A stretch of 64,000 nt of DNA from Lysobacter changpingensis. Its GTDB lineage: Bacteria > Pseudomonadota > Gammaproteobacteria > Xanthomonadales > Xanthomonadaceae. The notes below the pieces were generated by a model. It was given only the letters and a program-made list of their open reading frames with translations, was not told the DNA's origin and ran no database searches. Each line of letters begins with the position of its first letter. The stretch's first letter is position 1. The position numbers and the translations under genes are program-made. This document shows positions 5,345 through 14,051 of this stretch, one piece after another. The stretch spans positions 682,001 to 746,000 of the forward strand of contig NZ_JADWPE010000003.1 of the NCBI RefSeq assembly GCF_017308985.1. The letters run 5' to 3'.

Positions 5345-6628
5345 CTAACCGCCGAGACGTTCCTTCAATGCATCCAGGCGAAGGTCGGCGGATGCGCCCG
5401 GCGACACGCGCGCGCGCAGGCTCGTATCCGGATCGCCCCCGGCCCAGCGTGCGGGATCGGCCGCGAGCCGGTACGCCTCGCGGAACGGCAGGCCCTGGCG
5501 CGCCATGTCGACCGCGAGATCCGTCGCGTACATCGACGGGTCCAGCGCTTCGCGCATGCGGTCGGTCTTCCATTCGAGGTTGCGCAGCAGGTCCGGCAGC
5601 AACTCCAGCGCATCCAGTCCACGACCGAACGCGTGGAAGATCGCGCCCTTCGAGAACTGCAGGTCGCGGTGATAGCCCGACGGCAACGAGAGCAGTTGTT
5701 CGATCTCGGTGCGCGCAGCGGCGGCGGCGGAATAGCTGGCGCGCATCAGTTCGATCACATCGGGATTGCGCTTGTTCGGCATGATCGAACTGCCGGTCGT
5801 GTACTGCGACGGCAGCGCGACGAAGCCGAACTCGGCGCTGGTGAACAGGCTCAGGTCCCAGGCGAGACGACGCAGGTCGAGCAGCGCCGACGTCAACGCT
5901 TCGATCGCCGCCATCTCGAACTTGCCACGCGACAGCTGCGCGTACGCGGCCGATACCTGCATTCGTCCGAAGCCCAGCGCCTGCGTGGTGTGGTCGCGCG
6001 CGAGCGGCAGGTTCACGCCGTAGCCGGCAGCACTGCCGAGCGGATTCGCGTCGACCCACGCCAGCGTGTCGGCGGCGCGCTGCGCGTCGTCGATGAAGCC
6101 TTCCGCCCACGCGGCCCACCACATGCCGAGCGACGACACGACGGCACGTTGCAGATGCGTGTAGCCCGGCAGCGGCACGGCCTGTTCGGCCTCCGCGCGA
6201 GCGAGTGCGACCTGCGCGCTTTCGCGACATGTGGCGACGAGGCGCGTCAGGCGATCCTTCAGCCACAGGCGCGTCGCGACGAGGATCTGGTCGTTGCGGC
6301 TGCGGCCGGTGTGGATCTTCTTGCCCGCATCGCCGAGGCGTTCGACCAGTCGGGCTTCGATCGCCGAATGCCCGTCCTCGTACTGCTCGTCGAGCACGAA
6401 ACGCCGCGCCTTGAAGTCATCGGCAAGGGTCGACAGTTCGCGTTCCAGCCCGGCGAGCTCGGCGGCGGTGAGAATGCCGATCTGCTGCAATCCCTGCGCG
6501 TGCGCGCGGCTGGCTTCGATGTCGAACACGAAGAACTCGCGATCCAGGATCACGTCCTCGCCGGCGAGGAATTTCTGGATGCGCGCGTCGACCTTGACGC
6601 CGGGTTTCTGCCACAACAGTTCGGACAT
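5345..6628 (-). CDS. argH: argininosuccinate lyase
   Basis: Last step of arginine synthesis: argininosuccinate to arginine and fumarate. 427 aa. The fumarase/aspartase signature is [12 protein letters not shown]; other landmarks are [11 protein letters not shown] and PGYTHLQRA with the catalytic His. I took ATG 6628 ([10 protein letters not shown]) because AAGG lies 8 nt upstream; an in-frame GTG three codons earlier lacks proper spacing. Part of the minus-strand arginine cluster, 42 nt after argC. Confidence 0.96.
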
Positions 6629-6670
6629 GGGGGTCACCTTCCAGCGATCTTGGCGCGGTCTCGTAGCGCT

Positions 6671-8269: not shown

Positions 8270-9592
8270 TCAGTCCTTCAGCGTGGCGGTCCGTCCCGCG
8301 CAGTGCGCCACGCAGCGGGCGATCTCGTCGAACGTGTCCATGCCGTACCAGAACACCTTCCACTTCTCCTGCTTCAGGCAGCCGTCGGATTCGGCGTAAT
8401 AGAACGGATTCACCGGATTTCCGTGGCGCGAACGCCAGAACAGGCGCGGATTCTGCTCGCGCATCACCAGCCACACCGCGCGGCCGAGGCCCTCGCCCTG
8501 CGCTTCGTCGAGCACGGCGAACTTGTCGAGGTAGATGCCGGCTTCCTCGCTCGTCAGGATCACCGCCGCGCGATAGTTTTCGCTGACGTACGCGCGATGC
8601 AGCCTGGTGCGCTCGAAGTAGTCCGGCAGCAGGCGGCGACCGAACGCCGATTCGATGAGCCCGCGCAGGCGTTCCAGGTCGAGCTCGTTCCACTGCGACA
8701 CCTGCAGCACGCGCTCGCCGCGACGCACCAGCGTGCCCGAGCCCTTGTGGGTGAACAGCTCCTTGGCCAGCTCGCTTGGCTTGGTGATCGACACCGAAGA
8801 GGTCAGCGGCAGCTTGTCGAGCAGATCCTTGATCTGCTCGATCTTCACGCGCATGCCGCCGTTGATCCACGGCTGCGACATCAGGTGGTCGTACTCGGTG
8901 GACAGGTTGATCGAGTCGATGACCTTGCCGTTGTCGTCGAGCAGGCCGCCGGTGCCGGTGAGGAAGACGATCTTGTACGGCTGCAGCTTCTGCACGAGTT
9001 CGTTCGCGGCGAAGTCGGCATTGACGTTGAGGATCTGGCCGGACGCGGTTTCGCCGAGGCTCGCGATCACCGGAATGGAACCGGCGCGCAGGCTCGCCTC
9101 GATCGGCGCGAGGTTCACGCGCTTCACTTCGCCGACCAGGCCGTAGGTGTCGCGGTCGAGGTAGTCGGATTCGAACACGCCCGAGACGATCGACGTCGCG
9201 CGCGCGTCGAACGCCTGCAGCGCTTCCACCAGCTTGAGGTTCTGCGACTGGAACACGCGACGCACGATGGCGAGCGCTTCGGGCGAGGTGACGCGCAGGC
9301 CGTTCACCGTCTGCTTGGCGATGCCGGCAGCGGAAAGCTCCTCGTCCAGTTGCGGGCCGGCGCCGTGGATCACGATCGGCGTGAGCCCCACGTCCTGCAG
9401 GAACGCGAGCGAGGACGTCAGCGCTTCCAGATCGTCGCGCAGCACCGCGCCGCCGACCTTCACCACGGCGAAGCGCTTGGCGTCCAGTTGCGAGAAGCGC
9501 TTGAGGTACTGCGAGATCTCCTTCGCGCTGGCCATGCTCGAAAGCAGGCGCACGATGGTCTGTCTCGTCTGGATGTCACGGGTGTCGTTCAC
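8270..9592 (-). CDS. argB: bifunctional N-acetylglutamate kinase / N-acetylglutamate synthase
   Basis: First two steps of arginine synthesis in one 440-aa protein. Residues ~35-280 are an amino acid kinase domain ([53 protein letters not shown]). Residues ~290-435 are an acetyltransferase domain ([34 protein letters not shown]). This fusion is the NAGS/K type described from Xanthomonas. The start is GTG at 9592 with a GGAA 8 nt upstream. Arginine feedback on such enzymes is known for the family, not visible here. Confidence 0.95.
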
Positions 9593-9687: not shown

Positions 9688-10773
9688 TCAATGTTCGAGG
9701 ATGCGGGTTACCGATTCGGTGTAGCGCTGCAGTTGCTCCAGCGCGACCCATTCGTCGGCGGTATGCGCCTGGGCGATGTCGCCGGGGCCATACACGATCG
9801 CGGTGAGGCCGGCGGCGGAGAACAGCGACGCTTCCGTCCAGAAATCCACCGCGTTGCCGATCGGCAGGCCCAGCGCATCGGCGAGGTCGCGCGCTTCCAG
9901 GCGCCGGTTCTCCGCATCCGCGATGTCGCCCGACGGCAGCGACGGACCGCGGAAGGTTTCTTCGTAACGCTCCACCGCGCCGGCCTCGATAAGCGTGCCG
10001 AAGCGCTCGTGCAGCGCATCGATCGACATCGACGGCAGCGGGCGGAAGCCGAAACGCAACTCGGCGCTCGGCGCGATCATGTTCGCCTTGATCCCGCCTT
10101 CGACGCGGCCGATGTTGAAGCGCAGGCCGGTCAGCCCGCCGAAACGCTGGTGCGCCTGGCTTTCGACGAAGTCGAGCGCATGACCGCCCCAGCGGATCGC
10201 CTGGTGCAGCGCGCTGGCCTGCATCGCGTTCGCGCCCGATGCGTGACCTGCAACGCCGCGGAAGCGCATCAGCACCGAGCTGATGCCGCGATGCGCGAGT
10301 ACCGCTTCGCATTGCGTGGGTTCGGCGACGATGACGTCCTGGAACGCATGCGCGGTCGCGAGGAACGCCGCGATGCAGCGCGCGTCGTTCGCTTCCTCGT
10401 CGGTGGAGAACAGGAACGCGGCATCGCCCTTCGTCGCCGCAGCGGCGGTGAGCAATCCGGCGGCGGCGCCCTTGATGTCGCACGCGCCCAGACCGATGGC
10501 GCGGTCGCCGGTGACGCGCAGCACGTGCGGATCGGCGCTCCACGCTTCCGATGACGGAACGGTGTCGAGATGCACGTTGAACAGGCGGCGTGGATTGCCG
10601 CGCACGGCCAGCATCGACACGGCGCCGTCGCCGTGGTCCGTCACGTCGATGCGGAAGCCACGAAGCTGCGTGCGCAGGTAATCGAAGATGCCGCCGGTGC
10701 CGATGGCGCGTGGCGGATTGCGGGTGTCGAAGGACACCAGGGCTTCGAGGTGTTGGAGGGTCTGGTCGAGCAT
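9688..10773 (-). CDS. argE': N-acetyl-L-citrulline deacetylase (ArgE-type M20 peptidase)
   Basis: Predicted to remove the acetyl group from acetylcitrulline to give citrulline, the substrate of ArgG. 361 aa, M20 family: metal and catalytic residues in FNVHLDTVPSS and GLGACDIKGAAA, the catalytic Glu pair in LFSTDEEAND, and the dimerisation-domain stretch FRGVAGHAS. The usual proteobacterial ArgE acts on acetylornithine, but the neighbouring carbamoyltransferase is of the acetylornithine type, so the acetylcitrulline assignment follows from context. Lies between argG and argB/A on the same strand. Confidence 0.9.
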   Translation of the reverse strand: MLDQTLQHLEALVSFDTRNPPRAIGTGGIFDYLRTQLRGFRIDVTDHGDGAVSMLAVRGNPRRLFNVHLDTVPSSEAWSADPHVLRVTGDRAIGLGACDIKGAAAGLLTAAAATKGDAAFLFSTDEEANDARCIAAFLATAHAFQDVIVAEPTQCEAVLAHRGISSVLMRFRGVAGHASGANAMQASALHQAIRWGGHALDFVESQAHQRFGGLTGLRFNIGRVEGGIKANMIAPSAELRFGFRPLPSMSIDALHERFGTLIEAGAVERYEETFRGPSLPSGDIADAENRRLEARDLADALGLPIGNAVDFWTEASLFSAAGLTAIVYGPGDIAQAHTADEWVALEQLQRYTESVTRILEH

Positions 10774-10794: not shown

Positions 10795-10862
10795 GGAAAG
10801 GAGTGAGGAGTGAGCATCGCTTCGCTCACTTCCCGCTGCTGCTGTTTCTCGCTTCTCAGCCC
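10795..10862. repeat. inverted heptad-repeat cassette, argE'-argG gap
   Basis: The left arm holds two tandem GAGTGAG heptads (10801-10814); the right arm is pyrimidine-rich with CTCACTT (10825) and TTTCTCGCTTCTCAG. The argG stop codon (TCA on this strand, 10856-10858) lies inside the right arm. Confidence 0.6.
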
Positions 10863-12103
10863 TTCCGGTTGACCTCGGCCCACAGCGTGCTGCTCATTCC
10901 GAACAGCTTGATGAAGCCTTCGGCCTCGGCCACGCCCCAGTCCGCCGCCTGCGCGTAGGTCGCGCCCTTGGCGTTGAGGATGTGCCTGGATTCGATGGCG
11001 ACCGCGTTGACGATGCCACCTTGCGTTTCCAGCGTGACTTCGCCGTTCACGGTGGACTGGCTCGACTGCAGGAACGCCTCCAGGTCGGTCTTCAGCGGAT
11101 CGTGGAAGAAGCCTTCGTAGACCAGTTCCACCCACTTGCGCGCGACCTCGGGCTTGAAGCGGTTCTGCTGCTTGCTCAGCACCGCTTCCTCCAGCGCGCG
11201 ATGCGCGGTGAGCAGCGCGGTCAGGCCCGGCGCTTCGAAGATGATGCGGCCCTTCAGGCCGATCGTCGTGTCGCCCGTGTACAGGCCGCGACCCACACCG
11301 TACTGCGCGAACAGACCGTTGAGCTTGGCGAGCATCGTGTGCCCTTCGATCTTCTGGCCATCGAGCGTCACCGCTTCGCCGTTCACGAAACCGATCTTCA
11401 CGCGCAGCGTGTCGGCCGGCCACTCGGCGCGCGGCTTGCACCAGCCACGTGCGCCCTCGCCCGGCGTCTGCCAGCGATCGATCTCGCCGCCGGACATCGT
11501 CACGCCCAGCAGGTTCTCGTTGATCGTGTATGCCTTCTGCTTCGCGCGCACGCCGAAGCCGCGGTCTTCCAGGTACTTCTGCTCGTAGGCGCGGACTTCG
11601 GTGTGTTCCTTCTGGATCTCGCGGATCGGCGCCACGATCTCGTAATCGCCCAGCGCCTTCACCGCCAGGTCGAAACGCACCTGGTCGTTGCCCATGCCGG
11701 TGCAGCCATGCGCGATCGCCTTCGTCCCCAGCTCGGCGCAACGCTTCAGCGCCGCTTCGACGATGAGGTAACGGTCGGACACCAGCAGCGGATACTGCGA
11801 CTGGTAGCCCTCGCCCGCCCACACGAACGGCTTGACGAAGCCGGCCCAGATCGCCGGGCCGCCATCGACGGTGACGTGCGAGGCGACGCCCAGTTCCGCG
11901 GCGCGCTGCTCGATGAAGGCGCGCTCTTCCGCATCCACGCCGCCGGTGTCGGCGAACACGGTGTGCACGTTCCAGCCGCGCTCCTTCAGGTAGGGAACGC
12001 AGAAGCTGGTGTCGAGGCCGCCGGAGAAGGCGAGGACGATGTCCTTGAAGCCGGGATTCGTGATTCGTGATTCGTGATTCGATGTAGCGTTCTGCTGGGA
12101 CAT
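10856..12103 (-). CDS. argG: argininosuccinate synthase
   Basis: ATP-dependent condensation of citrulline and aspartate. 415 aa. The PP-loop is [17 protein letters not shown]; other landmarks are [13 protein letters not shown] and [16 protein letters not shown], placing it in the xanthomonad-type ArgG. The N-terminus is odd: before the expected [10 protein letters not shown] there are about 18 residues ([19 protein letters not shown]), of which [11 protein letters not shown] is translated from a tandem GATTCGT repeat (12055-12081). No start codon exists downstream of the repeat before the ATP loop, so the extension seems to be truly made. The stop codon also lies in a repeat arm. Confidence 0.95.
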
Positions 12104-12190
12104 GGGAGGCTCTATTTCGATGTTAAGGGGAGGAAGAACCGGGAAGGCGAGTGCTTTTGCGAATCACGAATCCCGAATCACGAATCACGG
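12055..12190. repeat. inverted heptad-repeat cassette, argG-argF' junction
   Basis: Left arm (GATTCGT)x3 plus GATTCG at 12055-12081. Right arm GAATCAC-GAATCCC-GAATCAC-GAATCAC at 12161-12188, which is its inverse. The left arm is inside argG codons; the right arm supplies the argF' stop (12185-12187). In the mRNA the arms could pair around an ~80-nt loop containing the argG start. Confidence 0.8.
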
Positions 12191-13198
12191 TTTCTGCACG
12201 AGCGCGGCCATGATGGCCTTCTGCACATGCAGCCGGTTCTCGGCTTCGTCGATGGCGATGCACTGCGGCGAATCCATCACCGCGTCGGTGGCTTTCACGT
12301 TGCGGCGCAGCGGCAGGCAGTGGCTGAAGACGCCGTTGTTGGTCAGCGCCATCTTCGCCTCGTCGACGATGAAGTGCTTGTACTCATCGCGGATGGGCTT
12401 TTCCGGTTCCCAGTTGCCGAAGAACGGCAGCGCGCCCCAGCTCTTGGCGTAGACGACGTCGGCGCCGCGATAGGCGCTTTCGATGTCGTGGCTGATGGCG
12501 AAGGAGCCGCCGCTTTCGGCGACGTTCTGCTCGGCCCAGCCGATGTAGCGCTCATCCAGCACGTACTGCGGCGTCGGGCACAGCAGCGTGACGTCCATGC
12601 CCATGCGCGTGGCGATCGTCAGCGCGGAGTTCGCCACCGCGGTGTTGAGCGGCTTGGGATGGTAGGTCCAGGTCAGCACGTACTTCCTGCCGCGCAGGTC
12701 GGAGGTGCCGAAGTGCTCCTGCAGCGCGAGGATGTGCGCGAGTTCCTGGCACGGGTGCGTGATCGTCTCCATGTTGATCACCGGCACCGGCGAGTACTTC
12801 GCGAAGCTGTTGAGCACGATGTCCTGGCGGTCGAGCTGCCAGTCGACGAACTTCGGGAACGCGCGCACGCCGATCAGGTCGACGTAACGGCCCAGCACGC
12901 GCGCGACTTCGGCGATGTGCTCCTCGGTGTCGCCGTCCATGACCGTGCCGAGGTTGAATTCGATCGGCCATGCGTCCTTGCCCGGCTGCAGCACCACGGC
13001 ATGGCCGCCGAGCTGGAAGGCGCCCAGTTCGAAGCTGGTGCGCGTGCGCATCGAGGGGTTGAAGAACACCAGCGCGATCGACTTGCCCTTCAGCTGGTCG
13101 CCGAGCTTGCTGCGTTTGAACCGCGCGGCCTGCGCGAGCAGCGCGTCGAGGTCGTCGCGCGACCAGTCCTGGGTGTTGAGGAAGTGCCTGTGGGTCAT
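12185..13198 (-). CDS. argF': N-acetyl-L-ornithine carbamoyltransferase (AOTCase)
   Basis: Transfers the carbamoyl group to N-acetylornithine giving N-acetylcitrulline; this replaces ornithine carbamoyltransferase. 337 aa. The carbamoyl-phosphate motif is SMRTRTSFE (49-57). Glu92 (DGDTEEH) and Lys302 (RRNVKATD) match the specificity residue and the carboxylated Lys known from Xanthomonas AOTCase, and HCLPLRR is present. ATG 13198 begins MTHRHFLNTQDWS, the family N-terminus. First gene of the minus-strand arginine run, preceded by a leader ORF and a terminator that end only 36 nt upstream. Confidence 0.97.
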   Translation of the reverse strand: MTHRHFLNTQDWSRDDLDALLAQAARFKRSKLGDQLKGKSIALVFFNPSMRTRTSFELGAFQLGGHAVVLQPGKDAWPIEFNLGTVMDGDTEEHIAEVARVLGRYVDLIGVRAFPKFVDWQLDRQDIVLNSFAKYSPVPVINMETITHPCQELAHILALQEHFGTSDLRGRKYVLTWTYHPKPLNTAVANSALTIATRMGMDVTLLCPTPQYVLDERYIGWAEQNVAESGGSFAISHDIESAYRGADVVYAKSWGALPFFGNWEPEKPIRDEYKHFIVDEAKMALTNNGVFSHCLPLRRNVKATDAVMDSPQCIAIDEAENRLHVQKAIMAALVQKP

Positions 13199-13233
13199 CG
13201 ACTGCGTTCCGGTGGGGAGTGGATCGCTGGGCC

Positions 13234-13269
13234 GAAAAGCAGAAAAGCCCAGCGCGTAGGCTGGGCTTT
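13234..13269 (-). terminator. intrinsic terminator/attenuator directly upstream of argF'
   Basis: Reading the minus strand: stem AAAGCCCAGC / GCTGGGCTTT (10 bp), loop CTACGC, tail TCTGCTTTTC. Only 35 nt separate the tail from the argF' ATG, leaving little room for another promoter. It therefore probably controls read-through into argF' as well as ending upstream transcripts. Confidence 0.8.
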
Positions 13270-13298
13270 CCGTGTGTCACTTCGCCTGTTGCGAATGG

Positions 13299-13348
13299 CG
13301 CGTGCGACCGTCTACCCAGCGGATTGGCGGGTGTACGGTCGGCGCGCG
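13299..13348 (-). promoter_or_regulatory. candidate pause/protector hairpin of the arg leader
   Basis: 13305-13311 (CGACCGT on +) pairs perfectly with 13335-13341, and with one bulged base the stem extends 6 more pairs to 13299/13348. Its upstream arm covers the Arg codons of the leader ORF; its loop carries the leader stop codon and GCUGGGU (13320-13314), which can pair with GCCCAGC of the terminator's first arm. Confidence 0.5.
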
Positions 13349-13416
13349 CGCGAGGTCATCCCCGCCGCCATCCAGGCGGAGGTGAGCACGTCGGCGTCGG
13401 CGTAAAGGGCGTTCAT
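13312..13416 (-). CDS. putative arginine leader peptide, 34 aa
   Basis: A short ORF starting MNALYADADVLTSAW and containing SRARRPYTR near its end: four Arg codons (CGC, CGC, CGA, CGC) within eight codons, then QSAG and stop. It precedes a terminator and then argF', the arrangement expected of ribosome-mediated attenuation: stalling at Arg codons would open the hairpin at 13299-13348 and free an anti-terminator. No Shine-Dalgarno is visible; a promoter at 13427-13455 would put the transcript start close to the ATG, suggesting a leaderless or nearly leaderless message. No protein function is expected. I recall no established arg attenuator of this kind in proteobacteria. Confidence 0.5.
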   Translation of the reverse strand: MNALYADADVLTSAWMAAGMTSRARRPYTRQSAG

Positions 13417-13426
13417 GAGGGGGCGA

Positions 13427-13455
13427 ATGCTCGCATGCGAGGGGGGCCGGCGCAA
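13427..13455 (-). promoter_or_regulatory. candidate promoter of the arg leader/argF' operon
   Basis: On the minus strand, TTGCGC (13455-13450) and GAGCAT (13432-13427) are 17 nt apart. The -10 is weak. The predicted start lies within a few nt of the leader ATG at 13416. A CACA-TT-TGTG dyad (13456-13465) lies just upstream and could be an operator. Confidence 0.35.
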
Positions 13456-13556
13456 CACATTTGTGCCCGGGGTTGGGAACGGATGGGTCGCGCCTGCCGG
13501 CATGGTGATCCGGCAAAGCCGCTGCACGCAGCTGGCTTGGCGGACGCGGCCCGGAT

Positions 13557-14051
13557 CTACCGGCTGCGCGGCGGCTGCACGACCGGCGTCACGGAAACCC
13601 GGATCCGCAGCCGGTTGCCCGGATCCTCCGGCAGGCGCGAGCGGTACTTGGCGCCCTTGTAGGTGTAGTCGACGTCGTAGGCGATCGGCCGACGGAACTC
13701 GCGTTCGACGGTGACCGGCTTGCAGTCCACCGCCGCCGCCTGCTTGTCCTTCTCCTCGCGGCCGAGGGCTTCCTTCACGGCGCCGATCGCGCGCGAGAGC
13801 TTGGAATCGCCCTTGGGTTCCTCGCACTGCTCCTCGACCGAGCTCGCCTTGAGGGTCTGGTAGACCGGCGTCACGCGCAGCACCTGCGCGTAGTCGAAGC
13901 GGACGTTCTCCGCCTGGATGACCGTGTTCTGCGTCGGCGCCTGCTGCGCCTGCGCCGCCCCCACCCACAGCATCGCGATGGCCACCGCGGCGACGGGCCC
14001 GGACAGGGCGGCTGCTGTCGCCGGCAGGAACGTGACTCGACGGGCCATCAC
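13557..14051 (-). CDS. exported hypothetical protein
   Basis: 164 aa with a signal sequence (hydrophobic ALSGPVAAVAIAMLWVG, cleavage likely after AQA). The mature part has YAQVLRVTPVYQTL, a charged, two-Cys middle section (EQCEEP, VDCKPV) and a C-terminal YDVDYTYKGAKYRSRLPEDPGNRLRIRV-like section: the pattern YxVxYxYxGxxYxxxxxxDPG is seen in small envelope proteins such as glycine-zipper/UmoD-like ones. There is no glycine zipper here. Start is GTG 14051 or ATG 14048. Divergent from cysS. Function unknown. Confidence 0.7.
   Translation of the reverse strand: MMARRVTFLPATAAALSGPVAAVAIAMLWVGAAQAQQAPTQNTVIQAENVRFDYAQVLRVTPVYQTLKASSVEEQCEEPKGDSKLSRAIGAVKEALGREEKDKQAAAVDCKPVTVEREFRRPIAYDVDYTYKGAKYRSRLPEDPGNRLRIRVSVTPVVQPPRSR

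Follow-up and report, generated by a model that had tools for sequence, protein, structure and literature searches.

Ribosome-mediated transcription attenuators are classically known in proteobacteria from his, thr, leu, ilv, phe and trp genes. Such an element combines a leader ORF containing codons for the end product with mutually exclusive RNA stems, a terminator, and a stop codon from which a ribosome masks the antiterminator. The locus described here resembles these systems in each of these respects and departs from them in that the amino acid is arginine, the start appears near-leaderless, and non-regulatory residues of the leader peptide are conserved across four families.

Sensing of Arg codons by a leader ORF has been described for orf34 of Salmonella speF, a catabolic gene (PMC6386406, consulted in excerpt). 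Like the leader reported here, orf34 is a short leader ORF with consecutive Arg codons and a conserved peptide core (SpeFL), and low arginine leads to ribosome pausing and thereby turns the gene on. It differs in controlling ornithine decarboxylase through Rho and RNase G and not through an intrinsic-terminator attenuator, and its core sequence, HIRRT (DUF2618), sets it apart from the MTSRARR or ITSRARR of our leader. In the excerpted text of PMC7298713, the rnTrpL/peTrpL attenuator RNA of Sinorhizobium is leaderless, beginning at the AUG, and is treated as a small RNA; here the differences are that the amino acid is tryptophan, that functions in trans were shown, and that the peTrpL peptides are poorly conserved in sequence, unlike the leader peptide of this study. 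A further RNA, Xoo5 of Xanthomonas oryzae PXO99, lies between PXO_00354 and PXO_00353, the latter coding for N-acetylornithine carbamoyltransferase. RACE located its 5' end, the cloned RNA measured 124 nt, Northern blots gave bands of ~130 and 100 nt with the short band alone late in growth, and the Xoo5 deletion was among mutants that grew normally in minimal medium, with flanking genes unaffected (PMC3039613, in excerpt). Xoo5 is homologous to our leader RNA and shares with it the end of the ORF and the downstream gene, argF'; the difference is that it has been annotated as a non-coding sRNA (Liang et al. 2011, PMC3039613).

Our window, the whole 64,000-nt stretch of Lysobacter changpingensis DNA that was analyzed, carries the leader on its minus strand, followed on the same strand by genes that profile matches identify as arginine-making:

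13312-13416, minus strand: leader ORF of 34 codons, MNALYADADVLTSAWMAAGMTSRARRPYTRQSAG, from ATG (13416-13414) to TAG (13314-13312)
13339-13383, minus strand: peptide core conserved at the amino-acid level, codons -8 to +6, in the window TSAWMAAGMTSRARR
13359-13339, minus strand: codons of the heptapeptide MTSRARR, within the leader ORF
13339-13341, minus strand: nearly invariant CGA Arg codon, the proposed stall site
12185-13198, minus strand: argF', N-acetylornithine carbamoyltransferase (NF003384, E 7e-192)
10856-12103, minus strand: argininosuccinate synthase (NF003385)
9688-10773, minus strand: acetylornithine deacetylase (NF006439)
8270-9592, minus strand: acetylglutamate kinase (NF003386)
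5345-6637, minus strand: argH, argininosuccinate lyase (TIGR00838)

To follow the leader across genomes we took the 650 nt preceding argF' from 80 named genomes and from 76 more members of the family, which together with the window span 52 genera. The two sets overlap and give 157 regions in total, 145 of them unique. Codons for the heptapeptide, in the sense direction, were present in 157/157 regions, and none was lost when a regular expression required T, S, R, A, R and R. The core reads MTSRARR in 144 and ITSRARR in one of the 145 unique leaders. All 77 sampled family genomes with a full-length argF' carry the leader, and looser motif searches recovered it in 80/81 and 77/77 cases, the single miss (L109) passing the stricter rule. 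Three family genomes without a full-length argF', one of them 72% complete, are without the motif, which all four comparison genomes have. A DNA pattern for the motif, run on a 200-genome sample of the order, was found in 36/36, 33/33, 3/3 and 8/10 genomes of f1, f12, f2 and f3 (f1 to f12 being tool labels for families), and in 1 of the 118 other genomes, there away from argF'. None of 271 genomes drawn from the class but not from the window's family has it. The MTSRARR leader is thus common to three sister families (f12, f2 and f3). The first-pass annotation had proposed an arginine attenuator at this position, to be judged by alignment with relatives; the ORF, its Arg codons and its pairing potential are all conserved there. 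It had counted four Arg codons in SRARRPYTR, of which R-A-R-R is conserved and the fourth, in PYTR, is not.

The start of the leader RNA is placed by its promoter-like sequences and by its match to Xoo5:

13427-13455, minus strand: promoter-like boxes, a -35 box TTGCGC (13455-13450), a 17-nt spacer and an extended -10 of the form TGn-GAGCAT (hexamer 13432-13427)
13418, minus strand: predicted transcription start, ~2 nt ahead of the leader ATG, from the -10 position and the Xoo5 5' RACE (PMC3039613)
13301-13409, minus strand: match to Rfam RF02242 (Xoo5 sRNA), 48.2 bits against a cut-off of 50, E ~1e-8

A TTGC-type -35 box with an extended -10 occurs in 137 of 142 leaders and in 18 of 2840 shuffles, under box rules that were fixed only after the aligned upstream sequences had been viewed; three of the 145 leaders, with no ATG in range, were excluded from this count. 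The boxes are 17 nt apart in 128 leaders and 18 nt apart in 9, they end 6-12 nt before the ATG, and the TG of the extended -10 is found in 133 of the 137. A scan of 12800-13800 with the generic E. coli sigma-70 consensus found no close promoter. The arrangement fits just 1 of 30 leaders from f3 and f12, so that this putative promoter is a trait of the window's family. The conserved pair of boxes supports the earlier guess that the leader ORF is leaderless. With this predicted start the message would be essentially leaderless, which goes beyond a textbook attenuator.

The RF02242 model aligns over its full length, positions 1-124, to 13409-13301 on the minus strand, and the window scores below the 50-bit gathering cut-off. 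Of 297 genomes from the window's family, 228 contain a match to the model, and in 142 the score lies above the cut-off. Among 20 listed genomes negative for RF02242, the leader is present in every one of the 17 that have a full-length argF', and the remaining 3 are without a full-length argF'; a further 49 negative genomes are not listed by name, and one of these, G088, also has the leader. The 124-position consensus starts CU-AUG and reads as an ORF ending ...MTSRARRP....AG-stop; through the Rfam model, the mapped 5' end of Xoo5 therefore corresponds to a position 2 nt before the leader AUG. A transcription start downstream of the terminator would have spoken against an attenuator, and the 5' end of the X. 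oryzae orthologue maps upstream of it. In three Xanthomonas leaders the predicted terminated RNA measures 156-157 nt to the end of the stem, as against the 124 nt and the bands of ~130 and 100 nt reported for Xoo5, so that 3' trimming has to be assumed. This size difference counts against the attenuator reading, as does the normal growth reported for the Xoo5 deletion in minimal medium. One other Rfam match, to rnk_pseudo, scored 18.5 bits against a cut-off of 55 and is probably due to chance.

We read Xoo5 as an arginine attenuator leader, an RNA known earlier and presented without that interpretation in the parts of the Xoo5 paper available to us. A term search of its text finds neither "leader" nor "arginine"; of the two instances of "attenuat", one concerns virulence and the other belongs to a general comment that transcription may be attenuated by 5'-UTR clones (PMC3039613, in excerpt). 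The RNA might instead be a trans-acting small RNA that sits upstream of argF' by chance. It has been detected on Northern blots, cloned twice and classed by Rfam as an sRNA (PMC3039613), and attenuator RNAs can act in trans, rnTrpL being an example (PMC7298713), both sources again in excerpt. We regard this as very improbable, given that the leader is sense-oriented ahead of argF' in every one of the 157 regions, is absent from the three tested genomes without a full-length argF', encodes a peptide with a protein-like substitution pattern and is followed by a terminator. The leader RNA of an arginine attenuator may still have an additional role in trans.

The substitution pattern was obtained by parsimony on a tree of 132 argF' genes. 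Over the seven codons of MTSRARR we count 78 synonymous changes and 1 non-synonymous change, and over codons -8 to +6 the figures are 198 and 85. The ratio is reversed on either side, with 36 synonymous against 167 non-synonymous changes in codons -13 to -9 and 21 against 173 in codons +8 to +11, where leader lengths also vary. Eight codons are fully invariant (104:0); as these were noticed post hoc, we quote the figures for MTSRARR and for codons -8 to +6. Conservation falls off immediately past the last Arg codon, which in 143 of the 145 unique leaders is CGA. CGC or CGU stands at the two earlier conserved Arg positions, apart from one CGA, and all three positions together include one CGG among 435 codons. 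Where Arg occurs at the non-conserved position -5, 49 of 102 codons are CGG, so that avoidance of CGG is specific to the conserved positions. CGA itself is rare: it accounts for 1.0% of the 2344 Arg codons of argF' genes and for 3.4% of the 268 found in ten ORFs of the window. CGU, CGC and CGA are read by one tRNA class, and CGA is decoded poorly. In Salmonella, all Arg-Arg pairs that contain CGA strongly relieve his attenuation (PMC4046918, in excerpt).

A peptide conserved as amino acids and ending at an almost invariant rare CGA is, to judge from sequence, more than a textbook attenuator calls for, and amino-acid-level conservation near the stall site is what marks arrest peptides. The chain SARMA(S/A)GMTSRARR could accordingly be a ligand-sensing arrest peptide that stalls the ribosome by itself in response to arginine or a pathway intermediate, its Arg codons mattering mainly as residues. 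The ratio of 78:1 against those of the flanks fits such a peptide, as does the end of conservation right past CGA and the retention of T, S, A, G and M besides Arg. The choice among CGC, CGU and CGA with near-absence of CGG points to codon sensing instead, and together with the distant leaders described below this makes a pure arrest peptide improbable. Codon sensing and the chain may also work together. The conserved peptide probably helps the ribosome to pause at CGA, which we put forward more cautiously than the attenuator as such; our leading guess for the peptide being locked across four families is a contribution of the nascent chain to the CGA stall. More speculatively, and with somewhat less than even chances, the leader may be a sensor of hybrid type, namely an arrest peptide translated from a leaderless message. 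Its nascent chain, AxMA(S/A)GMTSRAR, would prime the stall at the invariant, poorly decoded CGA, so that the charging of a single Arg isoacceptor would be read with far more gain than codons alone allow. In that case the Xoo5 RNA may also have a function in trans.

That part of the ORF is conserved at the protein level would also be expected of a plain gene for a small protein that has a terminator of its own and no connection with argF' control. The mostly non-synonymous changes in codons -13 to -9 and +8 to +11 argue against this, as does the pairing element around the stop codon, which belongs to the following set of features:

13299-13348, minus strand: stem P1 (1:2), whole, from the fold of the window's leader
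13348-13335 with 13311-13299, minus strand: Arg-codon arm of P1 and its partner, sequestering the antiterminator element in the fold
13331-13329 with 13317-13315, minus strand: inner pairing of P1, CCC with GGG, from the fold
13314-13320, minus strand: antiterminator element GCTGGGT, overlapping the leader stop codon and pairing with the 5' arm of the terminator
13242-13271, minus strand: intrinsic terminator (3:4), arms AAAGCCCAGC and GCTGGGCTTT, then a T-rich tail, from scan and fold

The terminator stem may also be given as 13269-13244, 13271-13242 being the 12-bp version from the scan. The positions first assigned to the stem, the heptamer and the terminator proved correct on the minus strand in fold and scan. 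A terminator scan of 12800-13800 gave two overlapping matches, both of them the leader terminator, against a shuffle mean of 0.4, and for the 221-nt leader the folding energy is -100.7 kcal/mol, which is 4.66 sd under dinucleotide shuffles. An intrinsic terminator, taken as the best-scoring stem with a T-rich tail and a recognizable 5' arm, lies between leader and first gene and was assigned in 145/145 unique regions. In A1, an alignment of 82 sequences, 97.2% of the terminator is paired, with 62 double-changed cells and five pairs that change on both sides. L157, which has no clear antiterminator, was excluded from A1.

The antiterminator is present as a pairing potential that excludes both P1 and the terminator. 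The best-matching heptamer, a choice that favors pairing, complements the first arm of the terminator at 7/7 positions in 126, at 6/7 in 17 and at 5/7 in 2 of the 145 leaders, which fits the proposed pairing of GCUGGGU. It begins 39 nt past the motif in 115/145 leaders and 6 nt before the stop codon in 122/145. The position of the stop codon shifts among leaders and the heptamer stays within 10 nt of its first base in 145/145, a constancy that a small-protein gene would not explain; by position, the stop codon is placed so that a ribosome on it would mask the antiterminator. The third pair is U-A in 120 leaders, C-G in 10, U-G in 9, a C-A mismatch in 5 and G-G in 1. On the argF' tree (120 tips with the element), six double and four single changes preserve pairing at this position and four changes break it; at the seventh pair, pairing is preserved by three double and fifteen single changes and broken by five. 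The 22 f12 loci that we read have GCCGGGT with ACCCGGC. In A1, 96.0% of antiterminator cells are paired versus at most 51.9% when the register is slid. Column shuffles fail to support the antiterminator, 33-463 of 500 reaching the observed values in columns that hardly vary.

Statistics for the protector stem over the regulatory codons, which is present in the fold of the window at the coordinates first given for it, are mixed. P1 has 75.4% of its cells paired in A1 versus at most 58.8% when slid (outer helix 65.6%), and 0 to 14 of 500 column shuffles reach the observed values. A slide by +1 raises both its number of double-changed cells and its covariation score above those of the proposed register. 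A swap test on pairing energies, in which each arm's own partner was set against partners from other genera, gave 24 and 142 of 5000 permutations for P1 and antiterminator and 2 and 10 of 5000 for two control segments; as it does not separate them from the controls, it supports neither. Energies in the window are -32.3 kcal/mol for P1, -24.1 for the antiterminator region and -16.7 for the terminator, and among 14 folded leaders the greater stability of P1 over the antiterminator region recurs in 11, and that of the antiterminator region over the terminator in 12.

RNAalifold on A1 did not find P1; it found the terminator and a small UCG/CGA hairpin (U10-A24, C11-G23 and G12-C22, in columns 10-24). 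CGA and UCG, both nearly invariant, might be conserved solely for this pairing and not for decoding. Covariation is uninformative on this point because the columns hardly vary, and the CGA enrichment of unrelated leaders, given below, makes us think it unlikely.

Taken together, the evidence leads us to regard the element as a transcription attenuator of the ribosome-mediated kind, responsive to arginine or arginyl-tRNA and in control of the operon for arginine synthesis by the acetylcitrulline route (probability about 0.88). Under arginine shortage, the Arg-rich leader peptide appears to let these bacteria switch on their arginine genes. From the parts, their conservation and their mutually exclusive pairing potential we infer stalling, masking, antitermination and an arginine response as follows. 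Transcription would begin ~2 nt ahead of the leader AUG, and with this start the ribosome would load on a near-leaderless message and trail RNA polymerase. When Arg-tRNA is short, it would stall on the R-A-R-R codons, with the slow CGA as the likeliest site, and, with a footprint of the generally accepted size, would cover the 5' arm of P1 and the CCC that otherwise holds GGGU. The freed GCUGGGU could then pair with the first arm of the terminator, allowing read-through into argF'. With plentiful arginine, a ribosome at the stop codon would mask the overlapping or abutting GCUGGGU and the terminator would form. If there is no translation, P1 would sequester GCUGGGU and the terminator would likewise form. 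The attenuator interpretation of the first-pass annotation is thus supported by the conserved anatomy and by the checks run against it, its refuting case of an unconserved ORF and Arg codons having found no instance in 157 regions; antitermination itself we infer.

Codons for the operon's own amino acid are also found in the leaders of more distant families. Upstream of argF' in f4 to f9, 16 of 20 regions contain an Arg-rich leader of another sequence directly before a terminator, for example NRTNPRRRRVLQSTAG, FPGRRARRTRRPLLAG and NAVVVRRRRPLRQMELFG. Since the ORF chosen in each region was the one with the most Arg, a shuffle control was run: at least 4 Arg within 8 codons occur in 14 of the 16 leaders and in 93 of 960 shuffles. 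By an uncontrolled count, the 3' part of the leader is complementary to the first arm or loop of the terminator over 6 nt or more in 12 of the 16, such as CCAGGTT with AACCTGG in f8, and over just 5 nt in four. The remaining four regions (L270, L274, L283 and L288) have neither a terminator nor a convincing leader; we scored them as misses and manually removed their Arg codons from the totals ahead of the codon test. CGA accounts for 25 of 100 Arg codons in the distant leaders versus 24 of 260 in argF' genes (p = 2.3e-4), and CGU, CGC and CGA jointly for 90/100 versus 175/260 (p = 4.6e-6).

Arg codons amid unrelated neighbors are what codon sensing would predict. With other flanking residues and the same terminator plan, Arg codons alone seem enough in these families, which argues against the arrest peptide, and the CGA enrichment of leaders with unrelated sequence argues against a role of CGA solely in the small hairpin. 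The exchange of the peptide with retention of Arg codons and terminator likewise counts against an ordinary small-protein gene, to which we give even less credence than to a trans-acting RNA placed by chance. Whether an attenuator can combine codon sensing with nascent-peptide arrest has a natural test here, the distant families having the plain Arg-codon version and the four MTSRARR families the locked one.

Among the matches listed from titles and opening parts of abstracts in open-licence PubMed Central, none reports that these bacteria have an arginine attenuator preceding argF', and the excerpted passages of PMC2965389, PMC5343134, PMC8632094, PMC6337395 and PMC4833913 do not mention such an element. 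If the attenuator reading is true, an arginine member joins the classical attenuators and an Rfam sRNA family is to be reinterpreted as a coding attenuator leader. The profile PF01316 detected no ArgR in 99 genomes of the family, with 9 of 14 control genomes positive; it does not cover AraC-type arginine regulators such as those of Pseudomonas. An attenuator would explain how acetylcitrulline-route arginine synthesis is controlled in bacteria in which no ArgR was found. We also note that the genome from which the window derives contains a second match to the DNA pattern of the motif.

Full-length argF', encoding N-acetylornithine carbamoyltransferase, is absent from three genomes of the family (G056, with completeness rated at 99%, G049 and G007), and the leader, the short MTSRARR-encoding ORF that we read as a putative arginine attenuator, was likewise absent when all three were searched. 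The MTSRAR pattern has a second match in the window's own genome, at G000:C7:114323-114342, which is probably due to chance.

Within the leader, the following element was predicted on alignment A1 (82 aligned leader sequences, L157 left out):

Window 13353-13339, minus strand, alignment A1 columns 10-24: small conserved hairpin

In this hairpin the Arg codon CGA is paired with the Ser codon UCG. It could serve as a pause hairpin, or the pairing could be the source of part of the codon conservation.

By the nearest-start rule, 10 leaders of family f12 (L248 and L260-L268) begin with GTG; the remaining 20 of L239-L268 begin with ATG. Here, unlike in the window's family, the promoter is not immediately adjacent to the start codon. 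In the distant-family argF' upstream region L272, the Arg-rich leader peptide MKNVMGNSIFPGRRARRTRRPLLAG is present twice, in tandem. One copy lies ∼320 nt and the other ∼130 nt ahead of argF', and they look like duplicated attenuators.

Regarding expression, Table 4 of a Xanthomonas oryzae sRNA study (PMC3039613) lists both N-acetylornithine carbamoyltransferase and argininosuccinate synthase as down-regulated in the sRNA-Xoo1 mutant, in keeping with the two genes forming one operon.
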